Positions 9,048-51,434 of a stretch of DNA of 64,000 bases are shown here, in pieces. Under the pieces are notes generated by a model. It was not told the DNA's origin. It did no database searches and saw only the letters and a program-made list of their open reading frames with translations. The position numbers and the translations under genes are program-made. Each line of letters starts with the position of its first letter. Positions within the stretch are counted from its first letter, which is position 1. Origin of the DNA: Syntrophomonadaceae bacterium (GTDB taxonomy: Bacteria; Bacillota; Syntrophomonadia; Syntrophomonadales; Syntrophomonadaceae); NCBI GenBank assembly GCA_028706315.1, contig JAQWBP010000001.1, positions 10,206 to 74,205 on the forward strand, given 5' to 3'.

Positions 9048-12000
9048 TTGTATTTAAAAAGACTGGAGATCAAGGGCTTTAAATCCTTTGCAGATAGCAC
9101 GGAAATATGCCTTAGACCCGGGATAAATATTATTGTCGGACCAAATGGATGCGGAAAAAGCAATATAGTCGATGCTATTCGCTGGGTTATTGGCGAAACT
9201 AACATTCGGCATCTCAGGGGACAGAAAAGTGAAGATGTTATTTTCAATGGTACTGACAGCAAAAAGGCGCTGGGCATGGCATATGTAGAGATTACTGTTG
9301 ACAACAGTGATCGCATATTACCAGTTGATTATAGTGAAGTTAACCTGGTACGCAAGATATTTCGTTCTGGTGAAAGCGAATTTTATTTAAACAAATCTAA
9401 AGTGAGACTTAAAGATATTACCCAACTATTTATGGGTACCGGGCTAGGTAAAAAAGGATATTCAATTATTAGTCAGGGCGAACTAGAACAAGTACTGAAT
9501 GGATCATCTCTGGATAGGCGGCTAATTCTGGAAGAAGCTTCAGGGATAATAAAATATCGCCAACAGCGGGATGATACTACCAAAAGAATCCAGGCTACTG
9601 GCAATGATTTAATCAGGCTAAATGATATTATTGTAGAACTGGAAAAACGCCAGATAGAAGTGCGTAACAAGGCATTAAAAGCTCAGCAGTATTTAAAAAT
9701 TGCTGGCGAATTGGGAGAACTGGAAAAAAAGGTCCTTCTCGCGGAAATCACCAGACAGGAAAAGGATCTGTTAAACAAAACTAGTCTTCTAGAGTCCAAA
9801 AGAGATGAACTTAATAAGCAAATTGGAGAGCTTAAATTACACGAAGTGCGGTTAAAAAATGAAGAAGAAAATCTACAAAATAACCATAAAAGAGTTAATG
9901 AACTAGTTAATACCAGACACGAATATGAGACCCAGATTGCGTCTATGAATAGCGAAATCAGGCTTTGTGAGGAGCGGGTAAAAGGGAACCTGGAGCGTAT
10001 AAAAACAGCTGAAAGTGATGAAAAAAAATATACTGATATGCTCAAAAAGCTGGAACAGGAACTTAAACATAATATTACCGATTTTGAGGAACAGGAAAGT
10101 AGATATACAGACTTGCTTAACTCCTTTGAAAAAGTAAATGTTTCAGTTAAAGAATTAGAGCATACTATAGAGAGTTGCCAGGTATCTTTTGAAGATAAAA
10201 AAGGCGGGGTTTTCGAACAGATAAAATATGAAAGTGAAATAAAAGACGTTATACTCAAAAAAGATGAACAATTAAAAAAAGCCGAAGAAAAAAAAGAAAG
10301 ATTAAGTATACATATTGAAGCAATCAGAGAGGAATATAGCCAGCAGATTAAACAATGTAGAGAAATCGAAAAGCTTAATCAGGTTACTGAACAGGAAATA
10401 ATAAAAAACGAAGCACTACTCACCCAACTAAATGACCAAAAAACGGCATTACTAACTTCCTTAAAGACTTTTGAAGATAAAAATAAGGATTTAAATGATA
10501 AATATATACAGATAAAAACTAAACTTAGTTCTATCCAGGACATGCAGAAAAATATGGTAGGATATTCCCATGGAGTTAAGTCTATTCTGGGTATGGCCAG
10601 GAAGGGCAGGCTTCACGGTATCATGGGGCTAATGGGAGAAATAATAGATGTACCTAGTGGAATGGAGCTTGCCATAGATATTGCTGTAGGAAAAGCACTG
10701 GAAAATGTTGTGACTCAGACGGTTGAACAGGCCCGGCATGCTATCGAATATTTAAAATCGGGCCGACTGGGACGGGTGACTTTTTTACCTCTGGATATAC
10801 TCAAGGTGCAAACGACCCCTCGGGATGTTATACAAAAGGTGGGGCAGATAGATGGTGTTCTGGGTATAGGTGCAAAGCTTATAAATTACGACCAGAGGTT
10901 TACAAAAGCTGTAGAATACCTTTTAGGGCGAGTATTAGTAGTTGAGGATATGGAAAAAGGTATCCAGGTCTTTAAACTGATAAAGTACCCCTTCCGTATA
11001 GTAACCCTGGATGGAGAATTAATAAATGTTAGTGGTGCATTAACTGGTGGGCAGAAAGTATCTTATCAATCTAGTCCACTACAGCGCAGAGGTGAAGAAA
11101 AAAAGCTGTGCGAGATGCAGCATAAGTACGAGATAGCCATTGATAAAAATAGTAAAGAAACAGAAAACCTCCATGCTGAGTTAACCAAAATTGAGGAGAA
11201 TATAACGCAATGCCGGGAAAAACTTATGGAATCCAGGTTTGCATATGATATGCAGGCTAAACAAATAGAAACGATCAGAAATGAGGTAACTAATCGGCAA
11301 AAAGATAGGGATGAAAACCTGCAGCAGATATTAAGACTGAACGCCGAAATAGAAGAATTAGAGTTAGATATTGCCGAATTAAATCGCCAACAAAGGGAAA
11401 TGCAGAAGGATAATGAAGTGCTCAATGAAGAGTTAAACGGGCTTAAGGAAAAGATAGATGCTCAAAAACATGAGTATGCTCTACAAAATGAAAGGCGTCA
11501 CTCTTATAAAGAACAGTTGGATATAAAAAAGAGAGAACTGGATAGCATTAAAAAGAATGCAACTCAATTTGAACAGGTCAGAAATTCCTATCAGCAGTCC
11601 CAACAGGATGCGCAAAAGCTTAATTCAAGGCTGCAGAATGAAATTAATGTACAAAACAGCCGGGTGCAGGCTATTAATAATATAATAACTACTAAGGGCG
11701 ACGAACTTAAAATAACAAAAAGTGACATTATTGCTTTGCAGGAAAAGCAACGGCTGCATAAAGAAAACATTGAACGAATAAGCGAGGAGCTAATCCCGAT
11801 TAGGGGAAGTATCTCCGGGCTAGAAAATAATATAAGAAATATGGAAATAGCTATTGCCCGGACTGAAACTGAACTGGAAGGATTTAAAGCTAAATGGTGG
11901 GAAAAGTTTAATTCCGATGTACCCCAGGTTGAGGGGGAACTTATTATCGGTGCTAAACTTCGAGATAAGAAAAAGACTATTGCAATACTGCAGGGACAGA

Positions 12001-42717: not shown

Positions 42718-42758
42718 AAAGTCTTTACTTTTATAATGAGCTGTGAGATAATTCAGTC

Positions 42759-43040
42759 TATAATATTTTAATTGCGATGAAAAAGTAAAGTAAATTTGTG
42801 GAATTATCCAGAGAAGAGATGTCGTCGGCTGGAATCATCTCCATAAGGAAACAAATTGAAGTTCACTTTGGAGCACCTGGCTGAACTAGTAGTAGGTCGA
42901 GGCGGAGCTCCCACCGTTAAAAGGGAGGGGATATCGGATAAAGCATGTATCTTTTTAGCAAGCGGGCCTTAGGCAATTTGGGTGGTACCGCGAGAAGTTT
43001 AAGCTTCTCGTCCCATAGGGATGAGAAGCTTTTTGATTTA
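42759..43040 (+). promoter_or_regulatory. T-box leader with intrinsic terminator
   Basis: A TATAAT (42759-42764) precedes a leader of about 270 nt. Stem I shows AGTA on the 5' side and GAA on the 3' side of the specifier loop, AATTTGT pairing with ACAAATT, and an AGAGA element. The conserved T-box sequence GGGTGGTACCGCG is at 42980-42992. The terminator AAGCTTCTCGTCCC (43001-43014) pairs with GGGATGAGAAGCTT (43018-43031), followed by TTTTG. Uncharged tRNA would favour the antiterminator and raise expression of downstream genes. The specifier segment reads GAAGTTCAC; TTC (Phe), followed by A, fits the usual layout best, while CAC (His) would fit the operon. Confidence 0.92.
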
Positions 43041-43065
43041 TTATCAGGTTTTATCTCGTATCTTT

Positions 43066-43150
43066 ATTGAGCGGCCTATGGCAATCTGGGTGGTACCGCG
43101 GGAGTTTGTAACCCTCTCGTCCCTGAAGGGATGAGGGGGTTTTTTATTTT
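43066..43150 (+). promoter_or_regulatory. Second T-box expression platform lacking stem I
   Basis: A second CTGGGTGGTACCGCGG (43086-43101) is followed by its own terminator, ACCCTCTCGTCCC (43111-43123) pairing with GGGATGAGGGGGT (43128-43140) and a TTTTTATTTT tail. Only about 35 bases separate it from the first terminator, too few for a stem I, so it is an expression platform without its own specifier. The rest of the gap to 43303 shows no gene or firm promoter. Confidence 0.85.
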
Positions 43151-43303: not shown

Positions 43304-44785
43304 ATGCTTGTATACTGTGATTTTGATCCTGTTGAGCTTTATTCAAGTATCCATGAACTTGTGAGGCTAGCATACCCGGGCTGTGCAATAACCCTCAACC
43401 CGGAGCGGGAAGCTGAAGTCAAGTTCAAAATCAAGCTTGGAAAAGATCACAGCGCAGTATTTTTACAGGGAGAAGTATTAAGTTCATCAGGAAATGTGGC
43501 TGATTGTCAAAAGTATTTACTATCTGATATTTATGCAGGCGAAAATGAACCTAAAAGACATGCCCGAGTATTTGCATACCATTTGTTATGCCAGCATGTT
43601 GGGCGTGATATTAATGCTTATGGTATTTTGACAGGAGTACGTCCGGTTAAGTTGGTTCACAAGTTATTAGATGCGGGATATGGTTCTAGAGATATAAAGC
43701 AAAAGCTAGAACATGAATATTGTCTTAATCCTAAAAAAGCCAGCTTACTGATGGAAGTTGCGGAAAATAGTAGAACTTATCTCCTGAACCGGGAGGAGGC
43801 AGCCAGAAATATAAGTATTTACATAGGCATTCCTTATTGTCCAACTCGCTGCTATTATTGTTCCTTCCCTGGTGCAGTCTTAAATAATTACGAGGAAGAT
43901 ATACCTTCTTTTTTGAAGGCATTAATGCTAGAAATGGATGTTATAGGCACATATTTAAATGAAAACAAAATAACCGTGCAGTCTATTTATGTAGGTGGAG
44001 GTACCCCTACAGTGCTCTCCGAAGGGGATATAGAAATAATATTTAATGCTTTGCATAAAAAGTATATATCTGGTGCTACTGCGGAGATTACTGTAGAGGC
44101 AGGCAGACCAGACACCCTGTCACCGGCGAAATTAAAATTGTTGCGGGAAGCGGGGGTAACCAGAGTCTGCATAAATCCTCAAACCATGAATGACTTTACC
44201 CTTAAACTTATTGGTAGAAATCATGATGCGAAGGGAGTGGTCCAATCAGTAGAATGGGCTAGAAAAGCAGGTATTAAAAAAATTAATATGGATCTTATTG
44301 TTGGTCTACCTGGAGAACATCTCCAGGAAAATACGTACACAGTAGAACAAATATTAAAACTATGTCCTGAAAATATCACAGTTCATACCCTCGCTATGAA
44401 AAGAGGCTCAGCTATGGCTGAAATGGAAAATAGAGCAGAGATAAACGATAGAGTCGAAGAAGTTCAAAAAGGCGTTAAATTATTTGCTTCGGCTTTAAGC
44501 AAAGCGGATTATAAACCTTATTACTTATATCGCCAGAAGTATATGAAGGCTAATATGGAGAATATAGGTTATTCATTAGAAGGTAATTTTTGTCTATATA
44601 ATATCCAGATGATCGAAGAAAGACAGACAATTATTGGCATGGGAGGTGGAGCAGCCAGCAAATTTATAAATGTATCTGACTGGAAATTAAGTTCTTTTTA
44701 TAATCCTAAAAATCCTCAGAGCTACTGTGAATCTGTTGAAAAGCTGATAAACCGTAAAGTTGACAAGCTCCGGGCCTTAATTTAG
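43304..44785 (+). CDS. hemZ: HemZ-type radical SAM protein (coproporphyrinogen III oxidase-like)
   Basis: A 493-residue protein. An N-terminal domain of about 160 residues particular to HemZ precedes a radical SAM core with CPTRCYYCSFP (CxxxCxxC) and YVGGGTPT. HemZ-family proteins are annotated as oxygen-independent coproporphyrinogen dehydrogenases but some may be haem chaperone-like, so the reaction is uncertain. It lies directly upstream of hisS, as in several clostridia, and under the T-box region. Confidence 0.82.
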   Translation: MLVYCDFDPVELYSSIHELVRLAYPGCAITLNPEREAEVKFKIKLGKDHSAVFLQGEVLSSSGNVADCQKYLLSDIYAGENEPKRHARVFAYHLLCQHVGRDINAYGILTGVRPVKLVHKLLDAGYGSRDIKQKLEHEYCLNPKKASLLMEVAENSRTYLLNREEAARNISIYIGIPYCPTRCYYCSFPGAVLNNYEEDIPSFLKALMLEMDVIGTYLNENKITVQSIYVGGGTPTVLSEGDIEIIFNALHKKYISGATAEITVEAGRPDTLSPAKLKLLREAGVTRVCINPQTMNDFTLKLIGRNHDAKGVVQSVEWARKAGIKKINMDLIVGLPGEHLQENTYTVEQILKLCPENITVHTLAMKRGSAMAEMENRAEINDRVEEVQKGVKLFASALSKADYKPYYLYRQKYMKANMENIGYSLEGNFCLYNIQMIEERQTIIGMGGGAASKFINVSDWKLSSFYNPKNPQSYCESVEKLINRKVDKLRALI

Positions 44786-44826: not shown

Positions 44827-46086
44827 ATGCAGATTAAAGCCCCAAGAGGTACATATGATATATTAGCGGATGATTCCTACAAATGGCAGTATATCGAAAA
44901 AGTGATGAAAGAAGTTGCAGAAATCTTTGGCTACAACGAAATCAGAACTCCCTTATTTGAACATACAGAACTATTTGAACGTGGGGTTGGGGAGAGTACT
45001 GATATTGTAACTAAGGAAATGTATACTTTTCATGATAAAGCAGAGCGCAGTTTAACTTTACGTCCCGAAGGGACTGCTTCGTGTGCACGAGCATTGATTG
45101 AACACAGCCTGTATAATGGGGTACTGCCAGTTAAATGGTATTATACCGGACCGATGTTTAGGTACGATCGTCCTCAGACAGGACGTTATCGCCAGTTTCA
45201 TCAATTCGGAATAGAGGCATTTGGCAGTAACAGCCCTCATCTTGACGCGGAAGTTATCCTTGTTTTAGTAGAAATTCTTTTACGCCTGGGACTTAAAAAT
45301 TATGAACTGCATCTGAATTCGGTGGGATGTCCTGAGTGCAGGGAAAATTATCGCAGGCACTTAATCGAGCATATCACACCAGTTAAAGATAAGTTATGTG
45401 AAGATTGCCAGTTAAGGTATACCCAGAATCCGTTAAGGGTGCTTGATTGTAAAAACGAGTCCTGCCACAAGGCTATTGAAGGATATCCTACGCTTTATGA
45501 CAATCTCTGTGATGAATGCCGAAATCACTATACAAAAGTTCAGGAAACGTTAAAAGATAGTGGTGTAGCATTTATACATGATGACAATTTGGTCAGAGGC
45601 CTGGATTATTATACGAATACTGCCTTTGAAATCCATATTCCGGGTATAGGTGCCCAGAGTGCTGTTGGCGGTGGAGGAAGATATAACGGCCTGGTGAAGG
45701 ATTGTGGAGGGCCAGACCTTCCTGGTATCGGTTTTGCACTGGGAATAGAAAGACTATTACTGGCTATAGATACATTAGGTAAAAAAGATTTTAAAGCCGC
45801 TAATATTGATGTGGTAGTTATAACGATGAGTGATAAATATGAAGATTTAGCTATTCAAGTCTTAAATCACCTGCGCCGGCATAATATCAGGTCAGAGAAA
45901 GACTATACAGGGAGAAGTCCCAGAGCCCAGATGAAATATGCCAATAAATTAGGTGCCCGGGTCGTTGTGCTGATAGGAGATGAAGAGGTCGAAAATGGCT
46001 GTTTAACTATCAGAAATATGCAGAACAAAGAACAGATTCAAGTAGAAAACCAGGAGCTTATTAGTAATATAAATAATATTCTATAG
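44827..46086 (+). CDS. hisS: Histidyl-tRNA synthetase
   Basis: A 419-residue class II synthetase starting MQIKAPRGTYDIL, with motif 2 around PMFRYDRPQTGRYRQFHQFG, the histidine-specific LVRGLDYYTNTAFEI, and a C-terminal anticodon-binding domain. It charges tRNA-His. It is followed by aspS after 24 bp, the standard Firmicute pair, often under T-box control. Confidence 0.98.
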   Translation: MQIKAPRGTYDILADDSYKWQYIEKVMKEVAEIFGYNEIRTPLFEHTELFERGVGESTDIVTKEMYTFHDKAERSLTLRPEGTASCARALIEHSLYNGVLPVKWYYTGPMFRYDRPQTGRYRQFHQFGIEAFGSNSPHLDAEVILVLVEILLRLGLKNYELHLNSVGCPECRENYRRHLIEHITPVKDKLCEDCQLRYTQNPLRVLDCKNESCHKAIEGYPTLYDNLCDECRNHYTKVQETLKDSGVAFIHDDNLVRGLDYYTNTAFEIHIPGIGAQSAVGGGGRYNGLVKDCGGPDLPGIGFALGIERLLLAIDTLGKKDFKAANIDVVVITMSDKYEDLAIQVLNHLRRHNIRSEKDYTGRSPRAQMKYANKLGARVVVLIGDEEVENGCLTIRNMQNKEQIQVENQELISNINNIL

Positions 46087-46110: not shown

Positions 46111-47868
46111 ATGAAGAGAACCCATAATGCTGCTGATATAGATATAAATACTGTTGATACCGAAGTCGTTCTAAATGGATGGGTAGATACCAGGAGGGAC
46201 CACGGGGGATTAATATTTATTGACCTTCGTGACCGTTCTGGCATTATACAGGTGGTTTTCAGCCCGGAAGTTGATATGAACTCTTTTCACCTTGCTGAGC
46301 AGGTAAGAGGCGAATTTGTAGTAGCTGTAAGGGGGAAAGTAAGCCTAAGACCACCAGAAACCGAGAATCCTAACCTGAAAACCGGAAAAGTTGAAGTTTA
46401 TGTTCGGGAAATGGAAGTTTTAAATTCAGCGAAAACACCACCGTTCTATATAGAAAATGATATAGATGTTGATGAGAACCTGAGGCTTAAATATAGATAC
46501 CTTGATCTACGCCGCCCAGAGATGAAGGATAACCTCATGCTCAGACATCGTATTATAAAGATTATGAGAGATTTTCTGGATAAAAGAGGATTCCTTGAGG
46601 TGGAAACTCCCATCCTAACTAAAAGTACTCCAGAAGGTGCCAGAGATTATCTAGTGCCGAGCCGGGTTCATCCGGGTGAGTTCTTTGCATTACCTCAATC
46701 ACCACAGATTTTTAAACAGATGCTGATGGTGGCAGGAATGGAAAAGTATTTTCAGGTTGCCAGATGTTTCCGTGACGAGGACCTGCGGGCTGATAGACAG
46801 CCGGAATTTACTCAGTTAGATATGGAAATGTCATTCATTGATGAAGAGGATATCTTTGAACTGATAGAAAAAATGATGGTTGATATATTTAGAGAAATTG
46901 GCAGAGAGATAAAAACACCTTTTCCCAGAATAACCTATGATGAGGCGATGGCTAAGTACGGTAGTGACAGCCCTGACCTTCGCTTTAACCTGGAGATAGT
47001 AGACTTAACTAATATAGTTAGGGACTGTGATTTTAAAGTTTTTGCGAGTGCCACTAAATCAGGAGGAGTAGTAAGGGCGATCAATGCTAAAACCTGTGGC
47101 TCCTTTACTCGTAGAAAAATAGATGAACTTGGTGCAATCGCTGTTGGAAATGGGGCCAAAGGGATGGCCTGGATTGTAGTAACAGAAAGCGAATTACGTT
47201 CCCCGATAACCAAATTTTTCAGTGAAGAAAAAATGCAGGAAATTCTTGATGCTCTGGACGCGCAACCAGGTGACTTACTCCTTTTTGCCGCTGATACTGC
47301 TGATACTGTATCCAGAGTACTGGGAGTACTCAGGATGGAACTGGCAAAAAGATTAAATCTTATCGATGAAGATACTTTAAACTTTACCTGGGTAATTGAT
47401 TTTCCGCTGTTAGAATATGATGATGAGGAAAAACGCTATGTAGCCGTACATCATCCATTTACATCCCCACGGGTAGAGGATTTAGAGCTGCTAGATTCAG
47501 ATCCCAGCAGGGTAAAGGCCAGAGCCTATGACCTAGTACTAAATGGTACAGAAATTGGTGGAGGAAGTATAAGGATACACAGGCGCGATTGGCAGGAGAA
47601 AATGTTCTCCCTCTTAGGTTTAACTATGGAGGATGCCCGGGAAAAATTTGGTTTTATGCTGGATGCTTTTGAATATGGAACACCTCCTCATGGTGGGATT
47701 GCTTTTGGCATAGATAGGCTAATAATGATAATGGCTAAGAGACAAAGTATTCGCGATGTTATTGCTTTCCCGAAAACCCAGAGTGCCGCTTGCCCGATGA
47801 CTGATGCTCCATCAGGGGTTAGTGGAAAACAACTTAGAGAACTGGCTATAAAGATAAGAGATAAATAA
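46111..47868 (+). CDS. aspS: Aspartyl-tRNA synthetase
   Basis: A 585-residue bacterial-type AspRS, with the N-terminal OB fold (LNGWVDTRRDHGGLIFIDLRD), class II motif 2 (RCFRDEDLRADRQPEFTQLD), a GAD insertion domain and motif 3 (GIAFGIDRLIMI). It charges tRNA-Asp; without a gatCAB view outside the window I cannot say whether it also charges tRNA-Asn. It is the last protein gene before the 6S RNA. Confidence 0.98.
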   Translation: MKRTHNAADIDINTVDTEVVLNGWVDTRRDHGGLIFIDLRDRSGIIQVVFSPEVDMNSFHLAEQVRGEFVVAVRGKVSLRPPETENPNLKTGKVEVYVREMEVLNSAKTPPFYIENDIDVDENLRLKYRYLDLRRPEMKDNLMLRHRIIKIMRDFLDKRGFLEVETPILTKSTPEGARDYLVPSRVHPGEFFALPQSPQIFKQMLMVAGMEKYFQVARCFRDEDLRADRQPEFTQLDMEMSFIDEEDIFELIEKMMVDIFREIGREIKTPFPRITYDEAMAKYGSDSPDLRFNLEIVDLTNIVRDCDFKVFASATKSGGVVRAINAKTCGSFTRRKIDELGAIAVGNGAKGMAWIVVTESELRSPITKFFSEEKMQEILDALDAQPGDLLLFAADTADTVSRVLGVLRMELAKRLNLIDEDTLNFTWVIDFPLLEYDDEEKRYVAVHHPFTSPRVEDLELLDSDPSRVKARAYDLVLNGTEIGGGSIRIHRRDWQEKMFSLLGLTMEDAREKFGFMLDAFEYGTPPHGGIAFGIDRLIMIMAKRQSIRDVIAFPKTQSAACPMTDAPSGVSGKQLRELAIKIRDK

Positions 47869-47945: not shown

Positions 47946-48148
47946 AAGAAAAATGACAAATCAAACAGTTAATCCCTACTGTGTACGTGAACAGCCGTTA
48001 AGTTTTTGCCAACACCAAAAACACGGGAGCTTGGACTCCGCATCTGGTATGTATGCCTGCCATCAGGACACATTAAATATGCGGGAGAGCACCCACCTGC
48101 AAAAGCAGGTTTAAACTGCGGCGTCACGGCTCGGTGGGGTTTTTTTAT
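47946..48148 (+). ncRNA. ssrS: 6S RNA (BsrA/SsrS type)
   Basis: A structured, non-coding stretch of about 200 nt lies between aspS and tcdA, exactly where B. subtilis has bsrA (6S-1). It contains a 6S-like segment (TGTGTACGTGAACAGCCG), GC-rich complementary ends (CCCACC near 48093 with GGTGGG near 48134) and a T7 tail after GGTGGGG, preceded by a good promoter. 6S RNA binds housekeeping RNA polymerase as an open-promoter mimic. A short reading frame crosses it but has no ribosome binding site or family resemblance. Confidence 0.8.
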
Positions 48149-49692: not shown

Positions 49693-50994
49693 ATGCCATA
49701 CTGGGATAAAGAAAGAGAATGTATGCCTCGTGAACAACTAGAGAAACATCAATTAAGGAAATTAAAGGAAACTGTATTCAAACTTTATGCATTTGTTCCT
49801 GCATATAAGGAAAAAATGGATAAGGTCGGGATTAAACCAGACGATATAAATAGCCTTAAAGATCTCGAAAAATTACCTTTCACAACTAAACAAGATTTAC
49901 GCAGTAATTATCCTTTCAATTTATTTGCCATACCTATGTGTGATGTTGTGAGAATACATTCATCCTCTGGTACTACTGGAAAGCCTACAGTTGTTGGCTA
50001 CTCAAAGAAAGATATAGAAACCTGGTCTGAATTAATGGCAAGAGCATTAAGTAGTGCAGGTGCCAGTAAATATTCTGTTATACAAAATTCTTATGGATAT
50101 GGACTATTTACTGGAGGTCTGGGAGTCCATTACGGTGTAGAAAAACTTGGTGCATCAGTAATTCCTAGTTCAGGTGGTAATACTAAAAGACAGATAATGC
50201 TGATGCAGGATTTTGGAACTACTGTTTTAACTTGTACTCCGTCTTATGCGCTATATATATATGAAGTAATGGAAGAAATGGGGTTAAAACCTTCAGACTT
50301 AAAGCTTAAGATAGGGATTTTTGGTGCAGAACCCTGGTCGGAGCGAATGCGTAAAGAAATTGAAAATAAACTGGAAATAGATGCATATGATATTTATGGA
50401 TTAAGTGAAATTATAGGTCCTGGAGTAGCAATAGAGTGTCCATATAAAAAAGGACTGCATATTGCTGAAGACCATTTTATAGCTGAAATCATTGATCCAG
50501 TAACTGAAGAGGTTTTACCCGATGGGTCACAGGGAGAACTAGTTATTACTAGTCTCACGAAAGAGGCTTTACCTATAGTTAGATATCGGACTCGGGACCT
50601 TACTACTCTAGACCGTAGTAAGTGTGATTGCGGGAGAACCCATGTAAGGATGCAAAAAATCATGGGACGCTCAGATGATATGGTAATAATTCGAGGAGTT
50701 AATGTATTCCCATCTATGGTGGAAAGTGTTCTTTTAAATATACCTGGGGTAGAGCCACATTATCGCCTTATTGTTGAAAGAAAAGGTACCCTTGATCAGT
50801 TAGAAGTTCAGGTGGAAGTATCCGAAAAACTCTTTAGTGATGAAGTGAAAAAGCTAGAACTACTTGGTGCACGTATTACTAGAGAACTAGAAAGTACCCT
50901 GGGAATAGGAGTAAAAGTCCGGCTGGTTGAACCCAAATCAATCGAAAGAAGCGAAGGAAAATCTAAAAGGGTGATAGATAAAAGAAACATTTAG
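49693..50994 (+). CDS. paaK: Phenylacetate-CoA ligase (PaaK family)
   Basis: A 433-residue AMP-forming ligase with [24 protein letters not shown] and YRTRD, starting [20 protein letters not shown], typical of the PaaK family. It would activate phenylacetate or another aryl or short acid to its CoA thioester. In anaerobic Firmicutes and archaea such genes often sit beside an ACT-domain gene and serve aromatic amino acid metabolism with indolepyruvate oxidoreductases. No such oxidoreductase is in the window, so the substrate is open. Confidence 0.92.
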
Positions 50995-51005
50995 GAGGGA
51001 TATTT

Positions 51006-51434
51006 ATGGCCATACAAATTTCTGTATTCCTGGAAAATAAGGCTGGGCGCTTATCCCATGTTACCCGTATTCTTGGTGAATCCGGCATTAACATTAGAGC
51101 GTTATCGATTGCAGATACTTCAGACTACGGGATTCTTCGTATAATTGTTAATGACCCGGCAAAAGCATATAAGATTCTCAAGGAAGCAGGTTTCACGGTA
51201 AGTGAAACAGATGTAATTGCTGTACAAGTTCCCGATTCACCAGGAGGTCTTGCTGATATTTTGGAACAAATGTCAGAGGAAGATCTAAACATCGAATATC
51301 TTTATGCATTCCTGGGGACAGCGGAAAATGATGCACTAGTAATTTTCAAAGTCGAAGATTTTGAAAAAGCGCGGCAAACATTTCCTGCAAAAGGTATCAA
51401 ATTTCTTGATGAAAATAAGTTATATCAATTGTAG
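51006..51434 (+). CDS. Tandem ACT-domain protein
   Basis: A 142-residue protein made of two ACT-like halves (ISVFLENKAGRLSHVTRILG at the start and VPDSPGGLADILEQMSEE in the second half) with no catalytic domain. ACT pairs bind amino acids. It lies 11 bp after paaK, a conserved pairing in anaerobes, and may sense an aromatic amino acid or regulate the ligase; this role is inferred from context only. Confidence 0.88.
   Translation: MAIQISVFLENKAGRLSHVTRILGESGINIRALSIADTSDYGILRIIVNDPAKAYKILKEAGFTVSETDVIAVQVPDSPGGLADILEQMSEEDLNIEYLYAFLGTAENDALVIFKVEDFEKARQTFPAKGIKFLDENKLYQL

Follow-up and report, generated by a model that had tools for sequence, protein, structure and literature searches.

How could a single tRNA-reading domain serve two terminators, and why does such a leader stand in front of a hisS operon? 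The window analysed here is the whole 64,000-nucleotide stretch (positions 10,206–74,205, forward strand) of contig JAQWBP010000001.1 from a Syntrophomonadaceae bacterium. Between 42768 and 43147 it contains two antiterminator/terminator platforms, with starts 108 nt apart, behind a single T-box stem I.

Anatomy of the leader and conservation of its second platform

The features of the region, all on the forward strand, are as follows:

42724–42752, +: predicted promoter-like site for the leader, TTTACT and GATAAT with a 17-nt spacer, the latter preceded by TG (consensus scan)
42768–43018, +: complete T-box leader with stem I, II, IIA/B and platform 1 (RF00230, 110.7 bits)
42862–42864, +: specifier codon UUC, phenylalanine (Infernal alignment; register from the genome's other T-boxes; GAAGTTC in 39 of 39 leaders)
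42914–42919, +: CCGTTA, which we take to be the F-box of stem IIA/B, a name in agreement with excerpts of published T-box descriptions (sequence)
42926–42943, +: U strand and hairpin loop, putative partner of D1 or D2 (swap, register and fold analyses)
42947–42954, +: D1 strand (GTATC), predicted 3' arm of the U-D1 hairpin (register and fold energies)
42962–42977, +: short stem 5' of antiterminator 1 (sequence; RF00230 alignment)
42980–43014, +: antiterminator 1, T-box bulge TGGT (RF00230 alignment; motif count)
43001–43031, +: predicted terminator 1, hairpin of -22.2 kcal/mol
43049–43066, +: D2 strand, putative alternative partner of U (predicted duplex -17.0 kcal/mol versus hairpin -5.4)
43071–43085, +: short stem 5' of antiterminator 2 (sequence; partial RF00230 alignment)
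43088–43123, +: antiterminator 2, T-box bulge TGGT (partial RF00230 alignment; motif count)
43110–43141, +: predicted terminator 2, hairpin of -24.5 kcal/mol
43304–44785, +: hemZ, first gene 3' of the leader (NCBIfam TIGR03994)
44827–46086, +: hisS (NCBIfam TIGR00442)
46111–47868, +: aspS (NCBIfam PRK00476 / TIGR00459)

The Rfam T-box model (RF00230, Infernal) gives one full-length match, at 42768–43018, with 110.7 bits against a gathering score of 93. Platform 2 alone matches model positions 107–219 only, a 5'-truncated match without stem I that scores 27.8 bits (E 1.3e-4) and falls short of the gathering score. Thus the second unit does not have a stem I and specifier of its own, as each platform of a complete tandem T-box does. 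Matches to the PyrR and PyrG leader models and other weak Rfam matches over platform 2 were all under their gathering scores. A 6S RNA is found directly 3' of aspS (47970–48144, RF00013, 99.4 bits).

A sequence-only reading of this DNA had reported that the T-box motif and a strong terminator occur twice, 106 bp apart. The two occurrences are confirmed, and the spacing is 108 nt from start to start: GGGTGGTACCGCG is found exactly at 42980–42992 and 43088–43100, both on the forward strand, and nowhere else in the window at two or fewer mismatches, while shuffled sequence has a mean of 0.36 matches to this 13-base motif at the same tolerance. Each copy is followed by a terminator-like hairpin (43001–43031 and 43110–43141), and at both platforms overlapping sequence and terminator predictions indicate that antiterminator and terminator are mutually exclusive, as in RF00230. 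From the last base of the first terminator hairpin (43031) to the beginning of the D2 strand (43049) there are only ca. 17 nt, too few for any second stem I, just as that reading had argued from the room available. It had also proposed a partial duplication including GCGG(G)CC..GGCAAT. The duplication is there and extends further than was seen, since the GTATC strand (D1 at 42947–42954; D2 at 43049–43066) is common to both platforms as well.

Double platforms are recurrent across families. A pattern scan detected closely spaced double platforms in 29 of the 63 class genomes and in 25 of 398 taken from the phylum. In a collection of ca. 85,000 genomes the pattern scan returned 90 stretches, including some in Syntrophomonas, Thermosyntropha, Pelotomaculum and Desulforamulus; 80 loci were retrieved, and L148, L155, L161, L162 and L170 were judged by eye not to be T-boxes. 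Among 52 syntenic hisS loci of the class, collected without requiring a second motif, two platforms are present in 33 and a T-box is absent from 18; the remaining locus (L114) is truncated by a contig end, and a complete single platform was seen in none. All 33 complete class leaders, like that of the window, combine one stem I with two terminator-antiterminator units. Platform 2 has 48 columns conserved at 90% or more, and the window departs from none of them.

These counts bear on the two explanations that the sequence-only reading had offered. One was that platform 2 belongs to a second T-box that decayed after losing its stem I. The platforms are partly alike, as decay would have it, but the same partial form in 33 of 33 complete class leaders, the recurrence across families, and the retention of platform 2 in many genera at full conservation in the window make this explanation highly implausible. 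The other, in which one tRNA-reading domain works with two successive terminators, is backed at the level of sequence by both anatomy and conservation. That reading is therefore supported in part; the phenylalanine specificity, the loss of aroF-pheA and the co-varying strand described below were absent from it.

Several variations on the double leader were observed. In leaders with gaps of 151–228 nt, a search for a third, degenerate platform found none; other inserts fill these gaps. Ten double-platform T-boxes lack the U/D1 element described below (L142, L145, L159, L163, L187, L188, L194, L209, L213, L219). Their hosts are Alicyclobacillus, Dialister and other Veillonellaceae, Pyramidobacter, Priestia and Geosporobacter, and some appear by eye to be specific for Phe, Tyr, Ile or Leu. 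Many double leaders have a variant first motif, TGGTAACGCG or TGGTAACACG, with the second canonical or nearly so (L282–L288, L346, L348, L351, L366), and the first T-box motif is likewise altered in genus g4 (L105, L110, L111, L120).

tRNA specificity and downstream genes

The Infernal alignment places UUC in the specifier loop of the window leader, with the register set by nine other T-boxes of the same genome, whose specifiers read UCC, UUC, CUC, UGC, UGG, GCC, AUC, GGC and AUC. All 39 collected class leaders have UUC (Phe), with GAAGTTC at its place. The genome's tRNA-Phe ends in ACCA (A73) and pairs with the bulge TGGT, while tRNA-His ends in CCCA (C73) and does not fit. Specifier and bulge therefore agree on one tRNA (UUC with tRNA-Phe GAA; TGGT with ACCA), and the register, the conservation of GAAGTTC and the fit of A73 together indicate that the leader reads tRNA-Phe, even though hisS lies downstream. 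Histidine specificity, which hisS might hint at, was also considered – CAC overlaps the specifier loop in GTTCAC – but the register, GAAGTTC and C73 of tRNA-His favour UUC.

In most leader-bearing relatives, the next genes are aroF (DAHP synthase) and pheA (prephenate dehydratase), and after these hemZ, hisS and aspS. In the window, aroF-pheA is absent between the leader and hemZ, and a tblastn search between terminator 2 and hemZ found no convincing remnants of either gene. Prephenate dehydratase (PF00800), present in 52 of the 63 genomes, was not found in the window's whole genome; three other DAHP synthases remain there. A HisS tree of 50 rows, with many deep forks unresolved, requires at least three changes to a state in which the leader is kept and aroF-pheA is gone (the window, G011 and the f2 family). 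G018 was scored as having aroF-pheA in this tree because of a 69-residue pheA remnant, and it is a fourth case of loss. At least four lineages thus retain the leader in front of hemZ-hisS-aspS while lacking an intact aroF-pheA. The original target of the leader would have been aroF-pheA, for phenylalanine synthesis, ahead of hemZ-hisS-aspS; with the loss of these two genes in the window's genome, the intact leader would have come to adjoin hemZ-hisS-aspS. The loss of aroF-pheA with the leader retained makes regulatory takeover testable.

It may instead be that the window's copy is a recent orphan, functionless since aroF-pheA was lost, and still intact because little time has passed. This explanation concerns the window copy only and is compatible with the main reading given below. 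Across the 106 conserved columns of stem I through platform 1, the window has 5 departures, more than all but 3 of the other 38 leaders; this, the failure to find prephenate dehydratase in the genome and the absence of an evident link of HemZ or HisS to phenylalanine speak for an orphan. The retention of the leader in those four or more lineages is not what the orphan explanation predicts, nor is a platform 2 with 0 departures at 48 columns, and we think it somewhat unlikely.

In other lineages, the same kind of leader is found before an SSF-family transporter, a Peripla_BP_6 binding protein or an AMP-binding (PaaK-like) enzyme. The SSF-family genes behind same-kind double leaders (L123:3405-4976, L144, L154, L160, L168, L183, L221, L233) are candidate phenylalanine transporters. 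The window itself has a PaaK-like AMP-binding protein followed by a small protein that looks ACT-like by eye (49693–51434), ca. 6.5 kb past the Phe leader, and in Desulfoscipio-type relatives a similar AMP-binding gene lies right behind a double-platform leader (L164, L189, L202). A phenylalanine route from phenylacetate at this locus, in a genome without prephenate dehydratase, is possible.

A strand with two alternative partners

Strand U (42926–42943), 3' of the F-box, is predicted to form a hairpin with D1 (42947–42954). The hairpin is common in T-boxes: the pattern of F-box, U and D1 was found in 117 of 398 genomes of the phylum, and of 112 examined matches bearing a T-box, 88 have one platform and 24 have two. 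Double leaders carry a repeat of D1, here named D2, just 5' of platform 2. D2 has a 5' extension complementary to the U-D1 hairpin loop, a match that a mere duplicate of D1 would lack. In 38 of 40 leaders, U:D2 is predicted to be more stable than the U-D1 hairpin (-17.0 versus -5.4 kcal/mol in the window). The distance from D to the antiterminator has a median of 35 nt at both platforms, and in five leaders with inserts of ca. 40–120 nt between terminator 1 and D2, D2 is still 32–37 nt from antiterminator 2.

The pairing was assessed by swapping the 5' extensions of D2 between leaders. From 131 entries, 82 were kept (duplicates and entries without a CCGTTA/ACGTTA F-box at 25–130 nt were dropped), of which 61 had both the TAY and the GTAY core, giving 44 distinct loops; L178, L195, L202, L164 and L201, in which the D2 core is not GTAY, are outside the U/D tests. 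Matched pairs averaged -15.94 and swapped pairs -12.92, a mean cost of 3.0 kcal/mol. With relatedness left in the permutations, 0 of 20000 were as extreme as the actual pairing (z -9.6), and in 38 of 44 rows the matched pair was better than the row's swapped median. The neighbouring 10 nt gave z -1.2 in the same test.

Further analyses used 40 leaders, after L149, L158, L159 and L180 were dropped as not of the U/D1 type. A sliding window peaked only at D2 (z -8.2; the next largest was -3.0), and the GATAT-type leaders alone (n=20) gave z -5.4 there. In the natural register of U and D2, 85.0% of 560 cells were paired and 60 cells had changes on both sides; six slid registers had at most 57.5% and at most 33. 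U therefore has an alternative pairing with compensatory change, the compensatory counts being those of U-D2. The predicted fold holds U-D2 in 31 of 40 leaders and lacks it in 9, and shuffling D2 lowers its mean probability from 0.55 to 0.08. In the window, this probability hinges on the 5' end of the folded stretch (0.04 versus 0.69).

The idea of U and D strands was first seen by eye on the same loci as were used in these tests. Because those loci had suggested it, new ones were fetched by the U/D1 pattern only, leaving the double motif unused. The independent set consisted of 126 matches at 126 loci, 30 retrieved and 96 chosen from the same list, minus the known double leaders and a few others; the D2 cores of L361 and L366 were placed at the wrong GTA and kept in. 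The 17 further distinct double leaders gave z -6.1, with 0 of 20000 permutations reaching the observed value and relatedness again left in. The single-platform control was not flat (z -1.7, 223/5000, n=75).

A broad-window test against dinucleotide shuffles was weak: 5 of 31 class-A leaders had z below -2, as had 3 of a mixed set of 49 others. It gave no support to handover in tandem T-boxes without a U/D1 element (those 3 of 49). Single cases in Dialister (L194) and Companilactobacillus (L218) have matches of ca. 8–10 bp.

Two explanations would do without a handover of the sensor or a second test. In the first, the leader is two attenuators in a row: the reading domain serves platform 1 only, and antiterminator 2 folds alone or with the help of the acceptor end of a different uncharged tRNA, supplied in trans, so that codon specificity is lost at the second step. 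Platform 2 retains the bulge TGGT and a strong terminator, tandem-platform T-boxes of Alicyclobacillus, Dialister and Pyramidobacter, for example, appear by eye to lack U/D1/D2, and the absence of a general U-D2 signal from the other leaders (3 of 49) points the same way. This explanation is nonetheless unlikely, leaving unexplained both the co-variation of D2 with U and its loop and the constant distance from D2 to antiterminator 2 despite a spacer ca. 40–120 nt longer. In the second, U-D2 is a reset or off-signal that pulls U from U-D1, ejects the tRNA from platform 1 and favours terminator 2, for a fixed low level without a second tRNA test. The greater predicted stability of U-D2 in 38 of 40 leaders is as a reset would have it, but platform 2 has a T-box motif that would be superfluous in a pure terminator and is conserved among those 48 columns at 90% or more, and we consider a reset distinctly improbable.

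Proposed sequential testing by one reading domain

Judged from its sequence, the leader has one stem I with specifier UUC and two conserved platforms, U is complementary to both D1 and D2, and D2 matches the loop of the U-D1 hairpin. Our preferred reading, which we consider rather probable, is that of a tRNA-Phe T-box with one reading domain and two platforms, in which U-D2 would re-dock the same domain on platform 2 for two sequential tests. Polymerase would first make the reading domain (stem I, II and IIA/B), which would bind tRNA-Phe and be docked on platform 1 by U-D1. Uncharged tRNA would stabilise antiterminator 1; otherwise transcription would stop at terminator 1. In transcripts that pass terminator 1, D2 would invade the U-D1 hairpin via its loop, and the resulting U-D2 helix would loop out platform 1 and bring that one reading domain, with its tRNA, to platform 2. 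There the tRNA end would be tested again, and leak past terminator 1 would be caught at terminator 2. Since two serial tests would act on one bound tRNA, leak should be lowered multiplicatively. Transfer of the tRNA itself leaves no trace in sequence; we infer this transfer, the use of both terminators and the benefit.

A broader proposal could as easily be wrong as right: that this is a proofreading riboswitch, in which strand exchange hands the tRNA-bound sensor to a second decision point so that one binding event is tested twice, that it is an old device, found widely among the aromatic amino acid leaders of Bacillota, and that it was taken over by the heme/His/Asp-tRNA synthetase operon in the window's lineage. 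If true, it would be a natural RNA form of sequential checking and would account for one stem I serving two terminators.

The leader resembles several known systems. Riboswitch expression platforms use alternative helices, in which a later-transcribed strand displaces an earlier helix. A later-made strand would displace an earlier helix here too, but the displaced helix would move the ligand-bound sensor between platforms, unlike in strand-displacement riboswitches. The window leader has the parts of a transcriptional T-box with a long stem I as in RF00230 – stem I with specifier, F-box, T-box bulge, antiterminator and terminator – and differs from it by adding a second discriminator and terminator without a stem I of their own. 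T-boxes with duplicated terminator-antiterminator elements were reportedly described by Vitreschak and colleagues in 2008 (RNA 14:717). That class, as reported, shares with the window leader the arrangement of one reading domain and two terminator-antiterminator units, and what would set the window leader apart is the U/D1/D2 helix, its co-variation and the history from aroF-pheA to hemZ-hisS-aspS. Duplicated platforms would then be known already, and the alternative helix of U, D1 and D2 would be the new part.

In the portions of PMC12452182 available to us, tandem T-boxes are two or three complete units, each with its own stem I and tRNA, and thrS is the only synthetase gene under tandem T-boxes, again from complete units. 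Those leaders, as described there, share with ours serial termination decisions on the same ligand; in the window, one sensor would serve both platforms. The available portions of PMC12452182, PMC9481103, PMC7583486, PMC7778990, PMC9413887 and PMC2494555 describe complete tandem units or none. Titles and abstract openings of the literature on T-boxes with duplicated or tandem terminators, strand displacement and toeholds mention no such helix. Known tandem riboswitches sharpen by duplication of the sensor, while here the decision part alone is duplicated and a conserved helix could move the single sensor. U, D1 and D2 offer a simple sequence rule for finding such leaders, in which a whole-model Rfam search reports one T-box, and the rule also points to candidate Phe transporters of the SSF family and to Phe-related enzymes.

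Another T-box of the same genome has an unusual arrangement of its own. A keyword search found no paper whose title describes a tRNA gene nested in a T-box. In the leader of leuS (L003:1501-1788, G000:C85:8581-8868; leuS was named by eye from the ORF), with a specifier read as CUC, a complete tRNA-Ala(GGC) gene is nested between the arms of the last stem, just 5' of the antiterminator. The same nesting of tRNA-Ala (ARAGORN, with specifier, F-box and antiterminator around it) was found in all 20 of the 20 best-matching loci (L308–L327), of 63 class genomes with some match.
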